Notes: generated from the sequence alone by a model not told the origin. 36,038 nt of DNA from Verrucomicrobiaceae bacterium (GCA_027487315.1 JAIYDW010000103.1:1-36038); one strand, 5' to 3'; positions 1 to 8,311 are shown, counted from the stretch's first letter. Made by a program: numbers and translations.

Positions 1-417
1 AAGGATGGGAAGTCGGTGAAGAAGTTCAGCACGAGTGGTGGGGCGAGTCACATGGACAACTGGTTGCAATCGATTCGAGAGGGGAAGGCGGTGTCGGCGA
101 ATCTCGATGTGGAGCACGGGCATGTGTCGGCGGGGTTGGCGCATCTGGCGAACATCTCGTATCGAGTGGGCAAGATGATGTCACCGGATGAGGTGAAGGA
201 GCGAATGGGCGGGGAGGCGATGATTCAGGAGACGCTGGTTGATTTTGATGGAAACTTGAAGGCGAACGGGATTGATGTGGCGGTGGAGCAGGCGGTGCTG
301 GGGCCTTGGTTGACGGTGAATCCGGAGACGGAGCGGTTTGAAGGGGAGTTTGCGGAGGAGGCGAACGGGTTGCTGGACGAGCGTTACCGGAAGGGGCATG
401 AGTTGCCGGTGATTTGA
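1..417 (+). CDS. Gfo/Idh/MocA family oxidoreductase, C-terminal part (5' end outside window)
   Basis: The reading frame is open from base 1 (K-D-G-K-S-V-K-K-F...), so the GTG at 16 is not a start and the gene begins upstream of the window. The visible ~138 residues match the C-terminal substrate/dimer domain of the Gfo/Idh/MocA NAD(P)-dependent oxidoreductases as found in Verrucomicrobia and Planctomycetes: a segment H-M-D-N-W-L-Q-S-I-R-E-G-K followed by the E-H-G-H-V-S-A-G-L-A-H-L-A-N-I-S-Y-R helix. The Rossmann domain and catalytic EKP motif are outside the window, so the substrate cannot be named; family members usually act on sugars or inositols. It ends at TGA 415-417, 68 bases before a sulfatase in the same direction. 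That pairing is common in polysaccharide-degrading Verrucomicrobia and suggests carbohydrate catabolism, which is inference. Confidence 0.85.
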   Translation, partial: KDGKSVKKFSTSGGASHMDNWLQSIREGKAVSANLDVEHGHVSAGLAHLANISYRVGKMMSPDEVKERMGGEAMIQETLVDFDGNLKANGIDVAVEQAVLGPWLTVNPETERFEGEFAEEANGLLDERYRKGHELPVI

Positions 418-485
418 GGAGGGGGAGCTTTTTCGACTGGATTGCAGGATTGACGGGATGGGGGTGGGTGGGGTGTAGTAGGGGG

Positions 486-1946
486 ATGCGATTTGTTTTG
501 ATTTTGATGCTTGGGTTGGGTTTGGGGCTGAGTGCGGAGGCGCGGAAGCCGAATGTGGTTTTGTTTTTGGTGGATGATTTGGGGTATTCGGATGTGGGGT
601 GTTTTGGGGCGAAGGGGATCAAGACGCCGAGGCTGGATCAGATGGCGAAGGAGGGGATTCGGTTGACGGATTTTTACGTGGCGCAGGCGGTTTGCAGTGC
701 GTCGCGCGCGGCGTTGATGACAGGGTGTTATGCGAATCGGGTGGGGATGCAGGGAGCGCTGAATCACACGAGCAAGGCGGGGTTGCATCCGGATGAGTTT
801 TTGCTGCCGGAGTTGTTGAAGCGAGAGGGGTATGCGACGGGGATTTATGGGAAGTGGCATCTGGGGACGACGGCGATGTTTCATCCGATGAAGCATGGGT
901 TTGATGATTATTTGGGGCTGCCGTATTCGAATGATAACAGCAAGTATCATCCGTCATTGGCGGCTGAGATGCCGCCGTTGCCGCTGTATGACGGAGAGAA
1001 GGTGGCGGAGGTGGATCCGGATCAGAGTCAGTTTACGAAGCGGTTTACGGAGCGGGCGGTGGCGTTCATGGAGCAGCACCGGGAGGAGCCGTTTTTTGTG
1101 TATCTGCCGCATGTGATGCCGCATGTGCCGATCTTTGCGAGTGAGGCCTTCAAGGGGAAATCGGAGGCGGGGTTGTATGGGGATGTGGTGGAGGAATTGG
1201 ACTGGTCGATGGGGGTGATTTTGGACACGATCAAGAGGCTTGGGTTGGACGAGAATACCTTGGTGATGTTCTTCTCGGACAACGGGCCGTTTTTGTCCTA
1301 TGGCGAGCATTCGGGTCATGCGGTTCCCTTGAGGGAGGGCAAGTTGACGAGTTATGAGGGAGGCGTGCGGGTGCCGTTTATTGCGCGTTGGCCGGGGAAG
1401 ATTCGGGCGGGGTCGGTGAGTGCTGAGCCGGTGATGGAGATTGATTTGTTGCCGACGATGGCGCGGTTGTTGGGGGCGGAATTGCCGAAGGAGCGGGTGA
1501 TTGATGGGATGGATGTGAGTGGTGTTTTGATGGGGGAAGAAGGGGCGAAGTCGCCGCATGAGGTGCTGGGGTTTTGGGCGGGGGATGAGTTGCAGGCGGT
1601 GCGATCGGGGAAGTGGAAGCTGCACTTTGAGCACTCGTACATCACGGTGCATGGAGAGCCGGGGAAGGGCGGTAAGCCTTCGAATTGGGAGAACATGAAG
1701 CCGCAGGCGATCACGCAGAGTGGGATTGCGGGGATTGCGTCGCGACACGGGTATCGAGTGGAGCAGCAGAAGCTGGCGTTGTATGATTTGGAGAGTGATC
1801 CGGGTGAGAGTCGCGATGTGGCGGCGGGGTATGCGGAGGTCGTTGATAGGCTGAAGCGGTTGGCGGTGCCTTTGAGAAATGCGTTGGGGGATGCGTTGAC
1901 GGGGGTGAAGGCGGGGGAGGCGCGGCCTTTGGGGATGGATGAGTGA
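486..1946 (+). CDS. Secreted sulfatase (arylsulfatase A-like, Cys-type)
   Basis: Predicted 486-residue sulfatase that hydrolyses sulfate esters, probably on polysaccharides in the periplasm or outside. I chose ATG 486 because it opens a signal peptide (residues 1-18, MRFVLILMLGLGLGLSAEA) directly before the first strand K-P-N-V-V-L-F-L-V-D-D; an in-frame TTG at 414 would add an unconvincing 24-residue leader. Visible motifs: metal-binding D30-D31; the formylglycine signature C70-S-A-S-R74; G-K-W-H-L-G with K123 and H125; metal ligands D265-N266 in F-S-D-N-G-P; and H209/H213 in the segment HVMPHVP. The signature has Ala where Pro is usual (C-x-A-x-R). Cys-type signatures with Ala are accepted by the radical-SAM maturase anSME; no maturase gene is in the window. 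Length is normal for the family. Confidence 0.93.
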   Translation: MRFVLILMLGLGLGLSAEARKPNVVLFLVDDLGYSDVGCFGAKGIKTPRLDQMAKEGIRLTDFYVAQAVCSASRAALMTGCYANRVGMQGALNHTSKAGLHPDEFLLPELLKREGYATGIYGKWHLGTTAMFHPMKHGFDDYLGLPYSNDNSKYHPSLAAEMPPLPLYDGEKVAEVDPDQSQFTKRFTERAVAFMEQHREEPFFVYLPHVMPHVPIFASEAFKGKSEAGLYGDVVEELDWSMGVILDTIKRLGLDENTLVMFFSDNGPFLSYGEHSGHAVPLREGKLTSYEGGVRVPFIARWPGKIRAGSVSAEPVMEIDLLPTMARLLGAELPKERVIDGMDVSGVLMGEEGAKSPHEVLGFWAGDELQAVRSGKWKLHFEHSYITVHGEPGKGGKPSNWENMKPQAITQSGIAGIASRHGYRVEQQKLALYDLESDPGESRDVAAGYAEVVDRLKRLAVPLRNALGDALTGVKAGEARPLGMDE

Positions 1947-2066
1947 TGGGCTGGCTTGGGTGCGCATGATGGCGGGCCGATGGTGGGTTCAAGCCAAGCG
2001 AGTGCCAGGAATTGGATGGTGCGAGTTGGTTCTTGATGCGTTATAGCATGGGTGGTAACACCTCGC

Positions 2067-2297
2067 ATGATTCACGAGCTCAAGCTTCGCAAAATTGGCA
2101 ACTCAGTCGGCGTCGTGTTTCCCCAAGAGGTGCTCACCGTGCTCAAGGCTCAAGAAGGCGACAGTTTGCAAGTGACTGAGGCTGCGGATGGCAGTATCCG
2201 GCTAAAGACTGTTAAGTTGGAGGTGAGCAAGCGGATGAAGATCGGCCAGGACATCATGGAGCGGTATCGCAGCGCCCTTGGTGTACTGGCCAAATGA
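2067..2297 (+). CDS. AbrB/MazE-type antitoxin, apparently orphan
   Basis: A 76-residue protein starting M-I-H-E-L-K-L-R-K-I-G-N-S-V-G-V-V-F-P, the swapped-hairpin AbrB/MazE/SpoVT DNA-binding fold (residues 1-50), with an acidic/basic C-terminal tail (residues 50-76) that would normally bind a toxin. A GTG at 2052 would add five residues, but ATG 2067 matches the usual N-terminus of the family. Such genes are normally followed within a few bases by a Doc/Fic or MazF toxin. Here the next 19 bases lead into an inverted repeat and no toxin frame follows. A short PIN-toxin remnant lies about 360 bases downstream, but it may come from another module. I read this as an orphan antitoxin left after loss of its toxin; DNA binding is inferred from the fold. 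Confidence 0.8.
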   Translation: MIHELKLRKIGNSVGVVFPQEVLTVLKAQEGDSLQVTEAADGSIRLKTVKLEVSKRMKIGQDIMERYRSALGVLAK

Positions 2298-2316
2298 GCT
2301 GGCCTGGTTGGGGGCT

Positions 2317-2406
2317 AACCTGAACTCCGAAGTTGGAGGCACCTGATGGGCTTGAGCAGCCAAGCCTCTGCGCCTCTCAAGCACCTCGAACTTCGGAATT
2401 CGGGTT
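2317..2406. repeat. Imperfect inverted repeat, MITE-like or hairpin element
   Basis: Left arm 2317-2339 (aacctgaactccgaagttgg + agg) and the reverse complement of right arm 2384-2406 (aacccgaattccgaagttcg + agg) agree at 20 of 23 positions. An inner stem, gcttgag at 2350-2356 with ctcaagc at 2376-2382, continues the fold, so the RNA or single strand would form one long two-part hairpin. It begins 19 bases after the antitoxin stop codon. It has no T-tract, so a terminator role is weak; a small mobile repeat is as likely. The arms contain tccgaagtt, a string I associate with intergenic repeats of Verrucomicrobia (from memory). Confidence 0.7.
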
Positions 2407-2634
2407 GTGGCGGTAGAGGAAGAAGTTGGTTGGGGCGTAAGGCATTAGGGTCGATGCAAAGGAAGAAGTTCGGCAAGCGTGGTGGGGAGTTGCTGGCGCG
2501 CCGTCGAGCAATGGACGGATTGGTCTGGTGAGAGAGCCGTCTGGATAGGGAGTAGGCTGACTTCAATCATTGATTTGGAGGTGTTTGGTGGGTGTTGAAG
2601 GGAAAAGATGAGGTTTAGTGGAAATGGAGATTTT

Positions 2635-3001
2635 GGGAAAATGTCTGGCATCTTTTCGGCATCTTTTCGTTTATGTTGCCACGGCTATCGAGTTGGGGGC
2701 GATGGCGTTCCTGACGTTTGATTGGATCCAGAAAAAGCTCGCGGAAGCCGAAGGGCTTGTCGTGCCCGTCTGACGGGGAGTGGAGCCTCTTTGAATCGCG
2801 GCACTCAGGTTGAGTGGTTTAATCTGCCTGCGAAAGTCAACGCGTCGCCGGTGAGGTTGGGACAACCGGGTTAAGCGGGTGCTTTCTGGCGGGAATTGGT
2901 GCTGTAAATTGCGGATTGTGAGGGCGTTGAGGAGTTTTTGAGAAAGGGGGGGTATTGGGGTTGCAAGGGGGGATGGGAAAATGTCTGGTATCTTCTTTTG
3001 G
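2635..3001 (+). repeat. Two direct copies of a 26-27-base sequence (2635-2660; 2975-3001)
   Basis: Both copies read gggaaaatgtctggYatctt followed by a T-rich end. The first copy is followed by a second ggcatcttttc unit (2648-2668), a small tandem duplication, and then the PIN remnant. The second copy stands 140 bases before the helicase operon. The 340 bases between carry the PIN remnant and nothing else recognisable. The arrangement suggests a duplication or insertion between the copies. Confidence 0.6.
2660..2773 (+). pseudogene. C-terminal remnant of a PIN-domain (VapC-like) toxin
   Basis: In the frame ending at TGA 2771-2773 the translation reads H-L-F-V-Y-V-A-T-A-I-E-L-G-A-M-A-F-L-T-F-D, followed by W-I-Q-K-K-L-A-E-A-E-G-L-V-V-P-V. 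This closely resembles the end of VapC-type PIN ribonucleases, where the pattern is x-H-V-A-T-A-L-E-L-G-A-x-x-F-L-T-F-D-x-x-Q-x-x-L-A-x-x-x-G-L. The final acidic residue of the active site (D in L-T-F-D) is present. The first ~90 residues with the other catalytic acids are missing: upstream there is a repeat and then stops in this frame. So it is a relic, not a functional toxin. The match is by eye. Confidence 0.65.
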
Positions 3002-3143
3002 CTTTCATTAGGTAGGGACGGCAGATTGTCTTGGATCTTTGTGGGGGGAGAAGGCCTAGAATGGCAGGGATTCTTTTCTTGGGAAAGTGAATGGCGCTTG
3101 CGAAAAATTGAGTTTCTGGCACGGTCGATTTTGTTTTGCTATT

Positions 3144-3746
3144 ATGGACTCCGCCCTCGTGCCTATGCATATCGTCTCAATCGTGTTGTGTGTGACGCTA
3201 CTGGTGCTTATTTTAAGGATCGGGGCGCGAATAACAAAGGCACACACAGATTTATCGACTTTAGGGGACGCAAACAGATTAGCTGTTGAGCAGATCCGTG
3301 TTGAAATCGGACAGATATTGGCGACAAAATTCGGCGAGAATGCAGTGAGAGTGGAGAAGCTGCTTCAAAATCACGATACGAGACATCAGGCGGACATGTC
3401 GAATTTGCAGAAGGCAGTGGAATCACGGATGGGTTATTTGGTCGAGCATATCACGGTGGTTGAGGGCGCGCTGAAAGAGTATTTCAAGACGTTCGGGGAG
3501 GCGAGCTGCGAAAATCAAAAAGAGCAATTGCGGATACTGGAGGCGGGGCCACTTGCAGGGCTGAGGGTGAGCGTAGGGGACGTAAATGAAGGAATTAAAC
3601 AGCTGGGGGAAATGAACCTTAACCTGAAGGGGTTAGTGCTTTCGGGGAATGAGGAGGTAGCTCGGAAACTGGGGGAAGCGATGGAGGTACAGGGAAAGCA
3701 AATTCGAGAGGTACTCGACAAAATTGACGAACCCATTGATATTTAA
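3144..3746 (+). CDS. Single-pass membrane coiled-coil protein of the helicase-nuclease module
   Basis: A 200-residue protein of no family I can name. The N-terminus holds one hydrophobic helix (about residues 8-30, M-H-I-V-S-I-V-L-C-V-T-L-L-V-L-I-L-R-I-G), followed by a long amphipathic, heptad-like region rich in E, K, Q and L (about 45-200) with no catalytic motif. I prefer ATG 3144; an earlier ATG at 3087 adds 19 atypical residues, and ATG 3165 would also keep the membrane helix. It ends six bases before the helicase gene, so the two are almost certainly co-transcribed and probably translationally coupled. Base composition is visibly more AT-rich than flanking genes. Plausible role: membrane anchor, sensor or oligomerisation partner of the helicase-nuclease. 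That is inference from context only. Confidence 0.8.
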   Translation: MDSALVPMHIVSIVLCVTLLVLILRIGARITKAHTDLSTLGDANRLAVEQIRVEIGQILATKFGENAVRVEKLLQNHDTRHQADMSNLQKAVESRMGYLVEHITVVEGALKEYFKTFGEASCENQKEQLRILEAGPLAGLRVSVGDVNEGIKQLGEMNLNLKGLVLSGNEEVARKLGEAMEVQGKQIREVLDKIDEPIDI

Positions 3747-3752
3747 TGTGTG

Positions 3753-6700
3753 ATGCCAAACACAACAGATGCCGTTAATGAAAACCGAGTATCGTCATAC
3801 CTTCGGTATCTTAGGGATGTGACGCGCAAAGTGTTGATTCGAAGTGGAATTAAGAATGTGCTGAAAGGTACGAAGGCGAATCCAACGCTCTATTTTAACT
3901 ACTCTGAACACAGTGAATTTCATCTAAAGAGTTACCTGAAGCAGGCGCGTATCCGTCTTCAGAGAGATACATCGAAGCAGCTCTTCATGGGCTTTGGGTT
4001 GGTTGTTGGGGGGAGTCGGAGCAGTGGAGGCAGTGGCGGGTCGGCTAAGGTTGCCGCTCCCATCTTTTACCTGCCAATACTTTTAGATGGTGAGGCAAGT
4101 GTGGATGAGTTGAAGTTGGATTGGGACGCTGTGCAACTAAACTTGGAACTACTTGCCGATTTCGTGGGAAAGGAGAATAACGAGGTTGAGAACGAGGGTA
4201 ATAGTCATGCGGATGCCTTGTTCGCTGATCCTGTAGGAAGGGATGTGCAGCAATTACTGGCAGAAGCGGACGACGCTTTGGAAAGTAAGTGCAAGGATAT
4301 GAATTGGAGGGGAAAGCTGCTATCGAACGCTTCCGAGTGTGGGAAATGTCTGGAGTCCTTTTTCCGCACGGAATTGTATCAAAGAATAAATGACATTCGA
4401 CACAAGATTCATGTGGTAAGCGCCGACGGTGCTGACAAGTTTAACGTGCGATTCGACTACAAGCCTGGAGACCGAAATTTGGAGAGAAAACTAAAGGACC
4501 TGTACGGGTCCGGAAAGGTTTATTTTTTCCCGCAAGCGTTCATTTTTTCGTCAACGGTGCCTGCAGAGATTAGTACCTATAGCGCGATTAAAGAGCTCAT
4601 AAATGAGTGCGAAAGCCATGGCATTCAAAATGAACTGCTTCGCAAGATGGTGGGGGGACTCGTGTCGAATAAGAAAATCGAATTGCGGGTGGGGCTTGAG
4701 AAACGAGAGAAAATTGAGGAGGCGATTCGTAAGGTCCCTTTGCCGCTTTCTGCTGAACAAAAAGAGGCTGTTATTCATGCGTGGGAGCAAGAAGTTTCCT
4801 ATATCGAGGGACCTCCAGGGACAGGGAAGTCACATACAATCACTGCGCTCATGCTTTCTGCACTAATTATGGGCAAAAGTGTCTTGTTGGTGTCTCACAA
4901 GCGGGACGCGGTGCGAGTGGTGAGAATGATGGTTCAAAAGTATTTGGGGTCGCACAGGGTGATATATGCGGGTGAAGATCCAGAGGGCCGACGAGAAATG
5001 CAGGAGTATTTGACAGGTGTTGCGAACTTAATTGCGAGGCCAGATTACATTGCCCGCCAACGTGCAGTCAAAGATAACGTGACCGCAAACCTAGATAACT
5101 TGACATCGAAGTTGCGGATTCTAGATATTCAAGAGTCGCAAATTGCGGGTCACGTTGGAAAGGAACGTGTTTTTGCTGAGGAACACACTGAGTTTGTCAG
5201 AAGTAGGGGGCGGCTTACTGGTGATATACCGCTGGGTTATGACTTTTCTGAAACGCGACATATCAAGGATCCTGCCAAGATGGAGCGCCTATTGCAGAAA
5301 ATGGAGGCTCTTTATTCTGAGGTTTATGTTGAACGGGGATACAAATTGACTCACGCAGAAAAAATCTCTTTGCGCAAAGTGCTTTTGATGTTGCGTGATG
5401 ACTTCAACATAGACGCCGAACGCCTGAAACAGGAGCATGAAGAACGGTCCGTGCTTCTTGCTCGCAAGACACTGGAACTTGTCACCCAGTGGCAGAGTGC
5501 GAACAAGCAGGGAGCAAAGATAGCGCCTGGAGCATTGCGAGTCGCGAGAGAACGTAGCGAGCACATGGCGCATGACCTGCAGAGGTTCCAACAAAAGCAT
5601 CTTGAGGCAGTTGTAGACGACCACGTGCTGCGGCACAGTAAATATGTCGAGGAAGATCTCAAGCCTCTCGCTAAGCTGTGGTATTGGAGGAACCCTGATC
5701 GGATACGAGAGATCATGGATGGTCTTGATTATGAAGGACTAGTGGAGGCGTTTCCCCTCTGGGCGGGTGAGATGCGACATTTGGGTGGCTATCTGCCGTT
5801 TGAGGCGGGTATGTTTGACTTGGTCATTGTTGATGAGGCATCGCAGGTGAACATTGCGGAGATTCTGCCCGCGCTCTATCGGGGGAAACAATTTTGTGTG
5901 GTCGGAGACAAAAAGCAATTAGGGCTTAATTCAGCAGGATTGTTCAGTGTGAACCGCACTTTCGAGCAGTTGATTTGGAACCGTTACTGTGGACAGGATA
6001 CATTCGTCGCGGCATTGGAGAAGAAGATGATCCTGAGTAAGGATTCCATTTTGGATTTCATTACAGAAGCAAATGGATTCTCCATGAAATCGACGCTCCT
6101 GACCGAGCATTTCCGGTCGATGCCCGCGTTGGCTGCTTTTACAAGCCGAAAATACTACGAGGACAGATTGCGCTTAATGAGAGAGACGCCGCAATATGTG
6201 AGACTGCGTTGCTTCTCAGCAATTGCAACGGGTGGGAGGCGGGGGCGGCGTGATGAAGATGGTGTTTTGTTAGGCCAAAAAGTAGTAGAAGAAGAAGTGG
6301 CGAAGGTCTTGGAGATTTTGGTGCAACTTATTCGAGAGCGTGCATGGCTAAAATTGGAGCACTTGAAGGAGCATGGCTTCACTGAAGAAAAACCTCCGTC
6401 GATTGGGGTTATTTCGTTCACAACGGATCAAAGAAACTACTTGAAAGAACGTATCGAAGACGAGGATTTTTTTGACCAGACAGAGCGTGGAATGCATGAG
6501 CTTTTCATCGGGACTCCAGAGGAGTACCAGGGTAGTGAACGCAATATTATAATTCTGACCCTTGCTCATGATGGCGAAGCTGCATACGCGCGAGGGCATT
6601 ATGAAGATTCGCGCCGGCTGAACGTGGCGACTAGCCGAGCAATCAACTACACGTATTTTGTGTACGGTGGTCTTCCGTCTAATGCGATAGCGTTTAAAGG

Positions 6701-7238
6701 ATACTTGAGGCACTTCGGAGTCGAGATTGCGACTACGCCTGTGGAGCCTGAGGAGCCTGAGGAGTCCGGCACATTAACAATTCGCAACTATCGGTGGGAC
6801 TTTAATCGCTGCCGTTACAGCGACGCTGCCATTGAATCTGAATTTGAACGGAAAGTAGCAGAATATCTTGAGGAGTATCGTGATGACCGAAGTGGTTATG
6901 GGGTGGAACTCTACAATCAAGTGGGTGCAGGGACATCAATTAACAGCTGTGGGCAAAAGCGGCTAGATTTTGTGTTATATTCCAAACAAACGCTGCGCTG
7001 CGTTGCCGTGGAGGTAGATGGGAAACATCATTTTGAGCAGAGCTCTGGAAAGCAATACGGCGAGGCGCACCTTGAAAGGGTGGAAATCCTGAAGCGTGCT
7101 GGGTGGCAAATTGTTCATATTCCATATTATGAATGGTATCAAGGCGGGTGGCTTTGCAATCAGGCAGATAGTTTGAAATTTCAGCGATCTTGGAAGAGGA
7201 CAAAGGAACAATTGGATGTTGGGTTAGGCATTCATTAA
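3753..7238 (+). CDS. SF1 (UPF1/DNA2-like) helicase fused to a PD-(D/E)XK nuclease
   Basis: A 1161-residue predicted nucleic-acid helicase and nuclease; ATG 3753 is preferred over the adjoining GTG 3750. Order of parts: an unassigned N-terminal region (1-325); a Q-motif-like segment P-L-S-A-E-Q-K-E-A-V (about 332-343); Walker A G-P-P-G-T-G-K-S (353-360); a long alpha-helical insertion (about 430-640); Walker B V-D-E-A-S with D694-E695; G-D-K-K-Q-L-G (motif III); E-H-F-R-S (motif IV); E-E-Y-Q-G-S-E (motif V); R-R-L-N-V-A-T-S-R-A (motif VI). The C-terminal domain carries R-L-D-F-V and V-E-V-D-G-K-H-H-F: D1072, E1087-x-D1089-x-K1091, followed by R-A-G-W-Q-I-V-H-I-P, as in DUF559/Vsr-like PD-(D/E)XK nucleases. 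All catalytic residues look intact. Codon use is unlike the G/T-skewed neighbours, suggesting acquisition. Helicase-nuclease fusions are common in phage defence. Confidence 0.9.
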   Translation: MPNTTDAVNENRVSSYLRYLRDVTRKVLIRSGIKNVLKGTKANPTLYFNYSEHSEFHLKSYLKQARIRLQRDTSKQLFMGFGLVVGGSRSSGGSGGSAKVAAPIFYLPILLDGEASVDELKLDWDAVQLNLELLADFVGKENNEVENEGNSHADALFADPVGRDVQQLLAEADDALESKCKDMNWRGKLLSNASECGKCLESFFRTELYQRINDIRHKIHVVSADGADKFNVRFDYKPGDRNLERKLKDLYGSGKVYFFPQAFIFSSTVPAEISTYSAIKELINECESHGIQNELLRKMVGGLVSNKKIELRVGLEKREKIEEAIRKVPLPLSAEQKEAVIHAWEQEVSYIEGPPGTGKSHTITALMLSALIMGKSVLLVSHKRDAVRVVRMMVQKYLGSHRVIYAGEDPEGRREMQEYLTGVANLIARPDYIARQRAVKDNVTANLDNLTSKLRILDIQESQIAGHVGKERVFAEEHTEFVRSRGRLTGDIPLGYDFSETRHIKDPAKMERLLQKMEALYSEVYVERGYKLTHAEKISLRKVLLMLRDDFNIDAERLKQEHEERSVLLARKTLELVTQWQSANKQGAKIAPGALRVARERSEHMAHDLQRFQQKHLEAVVDDHVLRHSKYVEEDLKPLAKLWYWRNPDRIREIMDGLDYEGLVEAFPLWAGEMRHLGGYLPFEAGMFDLVIVDEASQVNIAEILPALYRGKQFCVVGDKKQLGLNSAGLFSVNRTFEQLIWNRYCGQDTFVAALEKKMILSKDSILDFITEANGFSMKSTLLTEHFRSMPALAAFTSRKYYEDRLRLMRETPQYVRLRCFSAIATGGRRGRRDEDGVLLGQKVVEEEVAKVLEILVQLIRERAWLKLEHLKEHGFTEEKPPSIGVISFTTDQRNYLKERIEDEDFFDQTERGMHELFIGTPEEYQGSERNIIILTLAHDGEAAYARGHYEDSRRLNVATSRAINYTYFVYGGLPSNAIAFKGYLRHFGVEIATTPVEPEEPEESGTLTIRNYRWDFNRCRYSDAAIESEFERKVAEYLEEYRDDRSGYGVELYNQVGAGTSINSCGQKRLDFVLYSKQTLRCVAVEVDGKHHFEQSSGKQYGEAHLERVEILKRAGWQIVHIPYYEWYQGGWLCNQADSLKFQRSWKRTKEQLDVGLGIH

Positions 7239-7369
7239 GAGTTGGCCAGGGCTAGGTGAAACTGGTTACAGCCACAGAATGAGGTCAATGGGGGCAATGT
7301 TTGAGGCAGCGGTGGAAAAAGTGGAGGACTCTCCCGCCGGAATCGGACCAGTGCCATGGTAAGCCAGCG

Positions 7370-8311
7370 CTAGCGGCTGAGTTCGAGCATGCGGAGGAGG
7401 GGTTTTTCGGCTCGGGAGCGGAGGTCTTCGGGCATGGTGACTTGGGGGGCCAAGTTTAACAGGGCGTCGTGGAGTTTTTGGAGGGTGTTCATCTTCATGT
7501 AGCGGCAGTCGGCGCAGGCGCAGTGGCCGGTGGGGCCGGGGATGAAGCGTTTGTTGGGGACTTCGCGCTCGAGGCGGTGGAGCATGCCGGATTCGGTGAC
7601 GATGATGAAGGTATTGGACGGGTGGTCGCGGCAGTAGTGGACCATTTTTTCGGTGGAGCAGACTTCGTCGGCGAGCATACGGACGGCGTAGGTGCACTCG
7701 GGGTGGGCGACGACGGTGGCGTCGGGGTATTGCTCCTGGATGGCGGCGATGCTGTCGCGGGTGAACTCGACGTGGACGTAACAGGAGCCTTTCCAGAGCT
7801 CCATTTGGCGGCCGGTTTGTTCCATGACCCAGGCGCCGAGGTTTTGGTCGGGGACGAAGAGGATGGGGCGGTCCTGGGGGGCGGCGTTGACGATTTTGAC
7901 GGCGTTGCCGCTGGTGCAGATGCAGTCGCTGAGGGCTTTGACGTGGCCGGAGCAGTTGATGTAGGCGATGACGTAGTAGTTTTTGTCGGCGTTGGCTTTG
8001 AGGAAGGCTTCGAGTTGGGGACCGGGGCAGCTTTGTTCGAGGGAGCAGCCGGCGTTGGCGTCCGGGAGGATGACGGTTTTGGTGGGGTTGACGATTTTGG
8101 CGGTTTCAGCCATGAAGTGGACGCCGCAGAAGGCGATGACGTCGGCGTTGGTTTCTTTGGCTTTGTAAGCGAGGCCGAGGGAGTCGCCGACGAAATCGGC
8201 GATTTCCTGGATGTCGCGGGTTTGGTAGTTGTGGGCGAGGATGACGGCGTTGCGCTCTTTTTTGAGGCGCAGGATTTCGTTTTGGATGGAAGGGGCGGCG
8301 GTGGCGGGCAT
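7370..8311 (-). CDS. nadA: Quinolinate synthase A (NadA)
   Basis: Makes quinolinate from iminoaspartate and dihydroxyacetone phosphate in de novo NAD synthesis; a cytosolic [4Fe-4S] enzyme. The 313 residues contain the family hallmarks: A-H-N-Y-Q near 26-30, D-I-Q-E-I-A-D-F-V-G-D-S (33-44), F-C-G-V-H-F-M-A-E (61-69), P-D-A-N-A-G-C-S with C89, I-C-T-S-G-N-A-V (131-138), K-G-S-C-Y-V-H with C177, H-P-E-C (203-206) and the C-terminal cluster C264-A-C266-A-D-C269. C89, C177 and one of the C264-269 cluster are the expected cluster ligands. No nadB or nadC lies in the window. The gene stands alone between the helicase island and a tandem-repeat tract; its upstream region is largely simple repeats, and I see no convincing promoter. 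Confidence 0.96.
   Translation of the reverse strand: MPATAAPSIQNEILRLKKERNAVILAHNYQTRDIQEIADFVGDSLGLAYKAKETNADVIAFCGVHFMAETAKIVNPTKTVILPDANAGCSLEQSCPGPQLEAFLKANADKNYYVIAYINCSGHVKALSDCICTSGNAVKIVNAAPQDRPILFVPDQNLGAWVMEQTGRQMELWKGSCYVHVEFTRDSIAAIQEQYPDATVVAHPECTYAVRMLADEVCSTEKMVHYCRDHPSNTFIIVTESGMLHRLEREVPNKRFIPGPTGHCACADCRYMKMNTLQKLHDALLNLAPQVTMPEDLRSRAEKPLLRMLELSR

Follow-up and report, generated by a model that had tools for sequence, protein, structure and literature searches.

A helicase-nuclease gene with a conserved small membrane-protein partner: a candidate membrane-tethered defence module

The locus described here raises the question of whether a small membrane protein and a large helicase, encoded side by side, act together and, if so, to what end. 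Both genes lie at positions 3144-7238 of a 36,038-nucleotide stretch of Verrucomicrobiaceae bacterium (GCA_027487315.1, JAIYDW010000103.1:1-36038), which at its full length we call the window. An initial annotation had proposed an unnamed two-gene defence system in which a membrane sensor controls a nuclease engine. The open reading frame (ORF) coordinates bear out the arrangement it described, a 200-residue gene with a single transmembrane (TM) helix ending 6 bp before an 1161-residue gene. The pair very probably forms one system, and the small gene is kept in all nine orthologues identified. The features of the pair are as follows.

3144-3746, + strand: small membrane protein gene, ATG at 3144, stop at 3746, 200 amino acids
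3171-3227, + strand: TM helix, residues 10-28, hydropathy peak 2.72 with no second peak, predicted N-out/C-in
3753-7238, + strand: large helicase-nuclease gene, ATG at 3753, stop at 7238, 1161 amino acids
3753-4607, + strand: N-terminal region of the large protein, residues ~1-285
4809-4832, + strand: Walker A, GPPGTGKS, residues 353-360, with catalytic K359
4980-5675, + strand: long helical insertion after Walker A, residues 410-641, from the structure model
5832-5846, + strand: motif II (Walker B), DEASQ, residues 694-698
6510-6641, + strand: motifs V (GTPEEYQG, residues 920-927) and VI (NVATSRA, residues 957-963)
6840-7142, + strand: RAP/MTES_1575 nuclease-fold domain, residues ~1030-1130, from Pfam profiles
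6966-7025, + strand: catalytic-type residues D1072, E1087 and D1089; K1091 is present in the window and varies among relatives

In a first survey of 388 Acidobacteriota genomes the window held the only orthologue, and a denser draw of the order gave one more. Pattern scans built on one protein returned no match in genome or viral collections, because the patterns fell on unconserved stretches. With an alignment of distant relatives, an orthologue was recovered from Ignavibacteria UBA7675 (L035; Ignavibacteriota), spanning residues 1-1141 with an E value of 2e-155, and sampling at phylum or class level around L035 and G659 supplied L134, L135, L139, L140 and L141. Another sits on the 180.8-kb IMG/VR contig UViG_3300047323_000673 (L117), and one from a second Acidobacteriota genus, a different genus of the host family, is 56% identical (L145). 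Scores set these eight further orthologues, nine with the window, apart from all other proteins, with at least 741 bits against at most 195 in one of the searches; the nearest outsiders, from Chloroflexota, reach 284 bits with a different model. A tree of the motif II-VI regions places the nine in one clade on a long branch, with support of 100/100.

A small gene encoding an N-terminal TM helix and a helical body lies directly upstream in every clade member (9/9), compared with 3 of 76 other relatives judged in the same way; of these three outside positives, two resemble pieces of multi-pass membrane proteins. No clear small TM partner was found among nine further Chloroflexota relatives. Fisher's exact test gives p = 5e-10 for clade against non-clade, a value that ignores shared descent. 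Across the nine orthologues the stop of the small gene falls between -17 and +4 nt from the next start. The pairing on which the initial annotation staked its proposal thus holds, because all nine clade members carry the small TM gene upstream. Sister helicases from Bacteroidota and Chloroflexota were also weighed for membership, but their lower scores, degenerate nuclease motif and absence of a clear TM partner led us to exclude them. This sister family (L002, L031, L036-L043, L110, L112 and L161-L168, from Bacteroidota, Chloroflexota and others) comprises compact UPF1-like proteins of ~900-1100 amino acids; its nuclease motif reads IDLVGYPG or IACDG, and its members are without a clear partner gene.

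The small protein of the window consists of the TM helix followed by ~170 residues of predicted helix, ending in the conserved tail LDKIDEPIDI. The nine small proteins range from 75 to 200 amino acids and can scarcely be aligned; they share a plan in which an M-[DE] start (MTLTLE in L135) leads directly into the TM helix, followed by a charged helical body that ends in a conserved tail. The tail is LEES[VI][KR]F in three, with related acidic or amphipathic ends in the others. Only a few residues precede the TM helix in all nine, and K or R stands just after it in most; the positive-inside rule therefore predicts a cytoplasmic body. The membrane sensor of the initial annotation is not supported by this topology: since there is no outside domain for a receptor role, we speak of a membrane anchor instead. 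From its predicted topology, the small protein is very probably such an anchor or a scaffold.

The large protein matches AAA_11/AAA_12 of Pfam above cut-off, and motif III (GDKKQ) occupies residues 718-722. Among solved structures, the nearest folds are those of UPF1, DNA2 and IGHMBP2 (2xzo, 5eax and 4b3f; Z 20-22 over ~440-460 residues), which places the protein in the UPF1-like helicase clade; as modelled, it is a UPF1-like superfamily 1 (SF1) helicase. The structure model, built from a 12-row alignment, has a mean predicted local distance difference test score (pLDDT) of 74.5 and a predicted template modelling score of 0.72. It is weakest in the N-terminal region (pLDDT about 45-75), which partly superposes on the first part of the UPF1/DNA2 helicase core. 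Within the insertion, described as a coiled coil, the model predicts helices at residues 432-487 and 594-641. The SF1 motifs, the insertion and D1072/E1087/D1089/K1091 all stand where the initial annotation had put them; the Walker A lysine, which it numbered K360, is K359.

Structural comparison barely covered the protein beyond residue 1010, and the C-terminal domain is assigned from a RAP match together with the motif. RAP matches residues 1086-1130 (E=6.6e-11, 42.5 bits against a Pfam cut-off of 24.2), and MTES_1575 reaches 31.3 bits, under its cut-off of 38.2. The PD-(D/E)XK fold is common to RAP and Vsr-like domains, and on these profile grounds we class the domain as a RAP/Vsr-type PD-(D/E)XK nuclease fold. 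PLD and kinase profiles found no match in the proteins of the pair in the Pfam scan. Across the clade the helicase core is better conserved than the nuclease: six of the nine retain D1072/E1087/D1089 (window, L145, L134, L140, L139 and L141), and the other three (L035, L117 and L135) have one or more of these residues changed within conserved surrounding fold residues (AGW..PY..W). The proposed nuclease engine thus stands as to fold and motif, but not as a constant active site. K1091 is replaced by Q in L145 and L135, and so is probably not catalytic.

In three relatives (L135:3878-7166, L139:8276-11613 and L141:9259-12503) the N-terminal region (residues 1 to ~285) has an ORF to itself, 240-256 amino acids long, and the helicase-nuclease ORF, which opens with M[AP]F[DEN]N, begins at the preceding stop or 1 bp past it. 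Assembly error was considered for these split genes and rejected: the identical junction in three genomes, with its start codon at or 1 bp past the stop, makes sequencing error unlikely. We read the splits, from the gene sequences, as natural fusion or fission; L135, L139 and L141 would therefore carry a three-gene system.

How does the module compare with named systems? The closest curated families in PADLOC and NCBIfam are the defence proteins ProA, Hhe, MkoA and PDC-S37, all as partial matches only. The best, ProA (NF058533), aligns over residues 680-1130, from motif II through the nuclease domain, but scores 144.2 bits against a membership cut-off of at least 1500, with a model length of 1903. 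Hhe is built as a helicase followed by a Vsr nuclease, and it shares with the large protein the order of N-terminal region and SF1 helicase; the partial match to NF042953 is 89.7 bits against a cut-off of at least 2000, and the protein is 1161 amino acids long as opposed to 1797 model positions. The pair, moreover, has no DUF4011 match and has its constant small membrane partner. Mokosh (MkoA/MkoC in PADLOC) shares the UPF1-like helicase core at 88-114 bits. The Mokosh nuclease is a PLD, whereas the large protein here is of RAP/Vsr type, PLD is absent from the pair, and the identified neighbours are a MazE relic and NadA. UPF1, DNA2 and IGHMBP2, the best structural matches (Z about 22), are eukaryotic RNA/DNA helicases without the small partner or the C-terminal domain seen here.

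The nearest described anatomy is that of type III-B CoCoNuT, in which a UPF1-like CnuH, with a coiled-coil insertion following its Walker A motif and a Vsr-like nuclease fused to it, stands beside a separate coiled-coil CnuA (PMC11090510). The large protein matches this order of helicase, insertion and nuclease. III-B CnuH also has an N-terminal winged helix-turn-helix; the N-terminal region here is modelled only at low confidence. However, CoCoNuTs are defined by McrB/McrC partners (the CnuB GTPase and CnuC). The window operon has two genes only, between the MazE relic and nadA, with no McrB/McrC alongside, and its small protein is predicted to be membrane-anchored, whereas the passages of PMC11090510 consulted describe no TM helix for CnuA. 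Another defence nuclease mentioned there, Shield ShdA, combines a TM helix with a long coiled coil. By these comparisons the pair corresponds to no named system, although Hhe, ProA, Mokosh and CoCoNuT III-B each share part of its architecture. No description of the pair was found in the literature covered, which leaves out most subscription journals. Together with the conserved pairing, these results uphold the claim of an unnamed two-gene module.

The pair stands apart from its surroundings in composition. It lies on the strand opposite to that of the host genes, and its GC content is 0.484 against 0.612 for the rest of the window, every other 4095-bp segment being at 0.584 or above. The AT-richness claimed for it is thereby confirmed. 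The GC skew, said to be missing, is reduced rather than absent (0.23 against 0.39 for the rest, with a range of 0.27-0.48 elsewhere). Upstream lie two toxin-antitoxin (TA) remnants.

2029-2316, + strand: MazE-like antitoxin relic in the flank; its Fic/Doc partner is missing, and is intact in sister genome L146
2673-2870, + strand: C-terminal remnant of a PIN (VapC) toxin in the flank; intact in L146

In L146, a genome of the same genus, positions 1857-5179 carry MazE-like/Fic, the PIN toxin and a DUF433 gene, then nadA, with flanks as in the window and the pair absent. The window retains the MazE-like gene and the PIN remnant, and the pair is placed just before nadA. Because L146 has the same flanks without it, the pair occupies a site of variable content in which TA genes have decayed. 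Of the TA relics and repeats that the initial annotation had noted beside the pair, the relics are thus real; the repeat is weak. It is a 21-nt direct repeat, TGGGAAAATGTCTGG(C/T)ATCTT, at 2634-2654 and 2974-2994 (95% identical), with both copies upstream rather than flanking the pair.

Distribution is sparse. The pair is present in 2 of 142 genomes of the order, absent from the same-genus genome G1406, and present in 4 of 197 genomes of the class of G659; searches of two other phyla, run without a positive control, found it in 0 of 299 and 0 of 145 genomes. Several neighbourhoods resemble those of defence genes. In L135 a DruE-like gene (Druantia type I; 134-3883, 325 bits) converges on the helicase gene; the contig starts at this gene, so the remainder of a Druantia system is out of view. 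The L145 locus (2487-7739) is island-like, with a WYL regulator beside the pair and a tyrosine integrase and a T5orf172/GIY-YIG-type gene nearby. An MqsA-like gene and tRNA-Thr lie upstream in L141, and in L134 there is a small two-gene pair that we take, from its ORFs, to resemble RelE/Phd. The L117 contig, classed as viral, carries a permuted-type transfer-messenger RNA, phenylalanyl-tRNA synthetase and many DUF4116 repeats, and could represent part of a bacterial (endosymbiont-like) genome instead of a virus.

The sparse distribution, the TA hotspot beside nadA, the DruE, integrase and WYL neighbours and the defence proteins among the closest families suggest that the pair probably has a role in defence. 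On balance, the explanation we favour for the whole is a membrane-tethered helicase-nuclease module that would attack invader DNA or RNA. The small protein would insert in the inner membrane by its single N-terminal helix and expose next to nothing outside; its cytoplasmic helices would probably oligomerise, and its conserved C-terminal tail may hold the large protein. The UPF1/DNA2-type helicase would engage single-stranded ends or gaps and, powered by ATP, travel along the strand, delivering it to the C-terminal PD-(D/E)XK-type domain, whose fold and motifs are present and whose presumed activity is cutting. From the membrane, it would most likely attack invader nucleic acid on entry, or at nearby sites of its replication or transcription. 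In L035, L117 and L135, whose catalytic residues are altered, the protein would unwind or bind its substrate without cutting it, or would depend on a separate nuclease. Several observations weigh against a defence role. By gene names read from ORFs, L035 has thrS, a metallopeptidase and rho as neighbours, a housekeeping setting, and L134 has uvrC and rsmI; the nuclease motif is not constant; and kinship to Hhe alone is no proof of defence, because a large DUF4011 protein, possibly related in kind, belongs to the core genes of all P. aeruginosa isolates (PMC10250203). Of the defence system first proposed, the defence-like genomic context is therefore borne out for some orthologues, and the role itself stays probable.

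These housekeeping settings, together with the UPF1/DNA2/IGHMBP2 folds, would suit an enzyme of the cell's own nucleic-acid surveillance or repair, tethered to the membrane to trim RNA or DNA ends without any immune role. We consider this unlikely given the patchy occurrence in the order and genus, the low GC, the variable TA spot and the DruE, integrase and WYL neighbours. Alternatively, the helicase-nuclease could be an abortive toxin that turns on host RNA or DNA once a cell is infected, with the small membrane protein restraining it at rest in the manner of an antitoxin. As in many TA operons, the small gene comes first in a coupled operon; its product has a conserved C-terminal tail, and TA remnants lie nearby. 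An antitoxin would have no need of a membrane helix in 9/9, however, and three members have altered active sites, while the size and helicase are unlike those of TA toxins; this reading seems quite improbable.

A reduced type III-B CoCoNuT, with CnuH helicase-Vsr and coiled-coil CnuA kept and the McrBC (CnuB/CnuC) partners lost, would account for the shared domain order and the separate coiled-coil protein (PMC11090510). It is very unlikely: no McrB/McrC gene adjoins any locus whose flanks were read, the TM helix is universal among the small proteins, and the nine form their own clade on a long stem. Slightly less probable still is a function for a mobile element, such as superinfection exclusion or element maintenance. 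The integrase near L145 and the viral classification of the L117 contig are in its favour, but a phage collection of 50,697 records gave no match, plasmids gave no full-length match, and no mobile genes were recognised adjoining the window copy.

Helicase-nuclease proteins make up a large share of bacterial immunity and are mostly regarded as free in the cytoplasm. Taken together, our results lead us to propose, tentatively, an unnamed family of UPF1-type helicase-nuclease immune systems that are tethered to the membrane, thinly spread over distant bacteria, that would meet invader nucleic acid at the inner membrane, with the N-terminal domain fused or as a third subunit and some members without an intact nuclease. 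The natural splits and active-site losses are ready material for dissecting which parts are needed. With a constant minimal membrane anchor in the family, the catching of invader nucleic acid at the membrane would become directly testable, and prokaryotic UPF1-like proteins would gain a mechanism of localisation.

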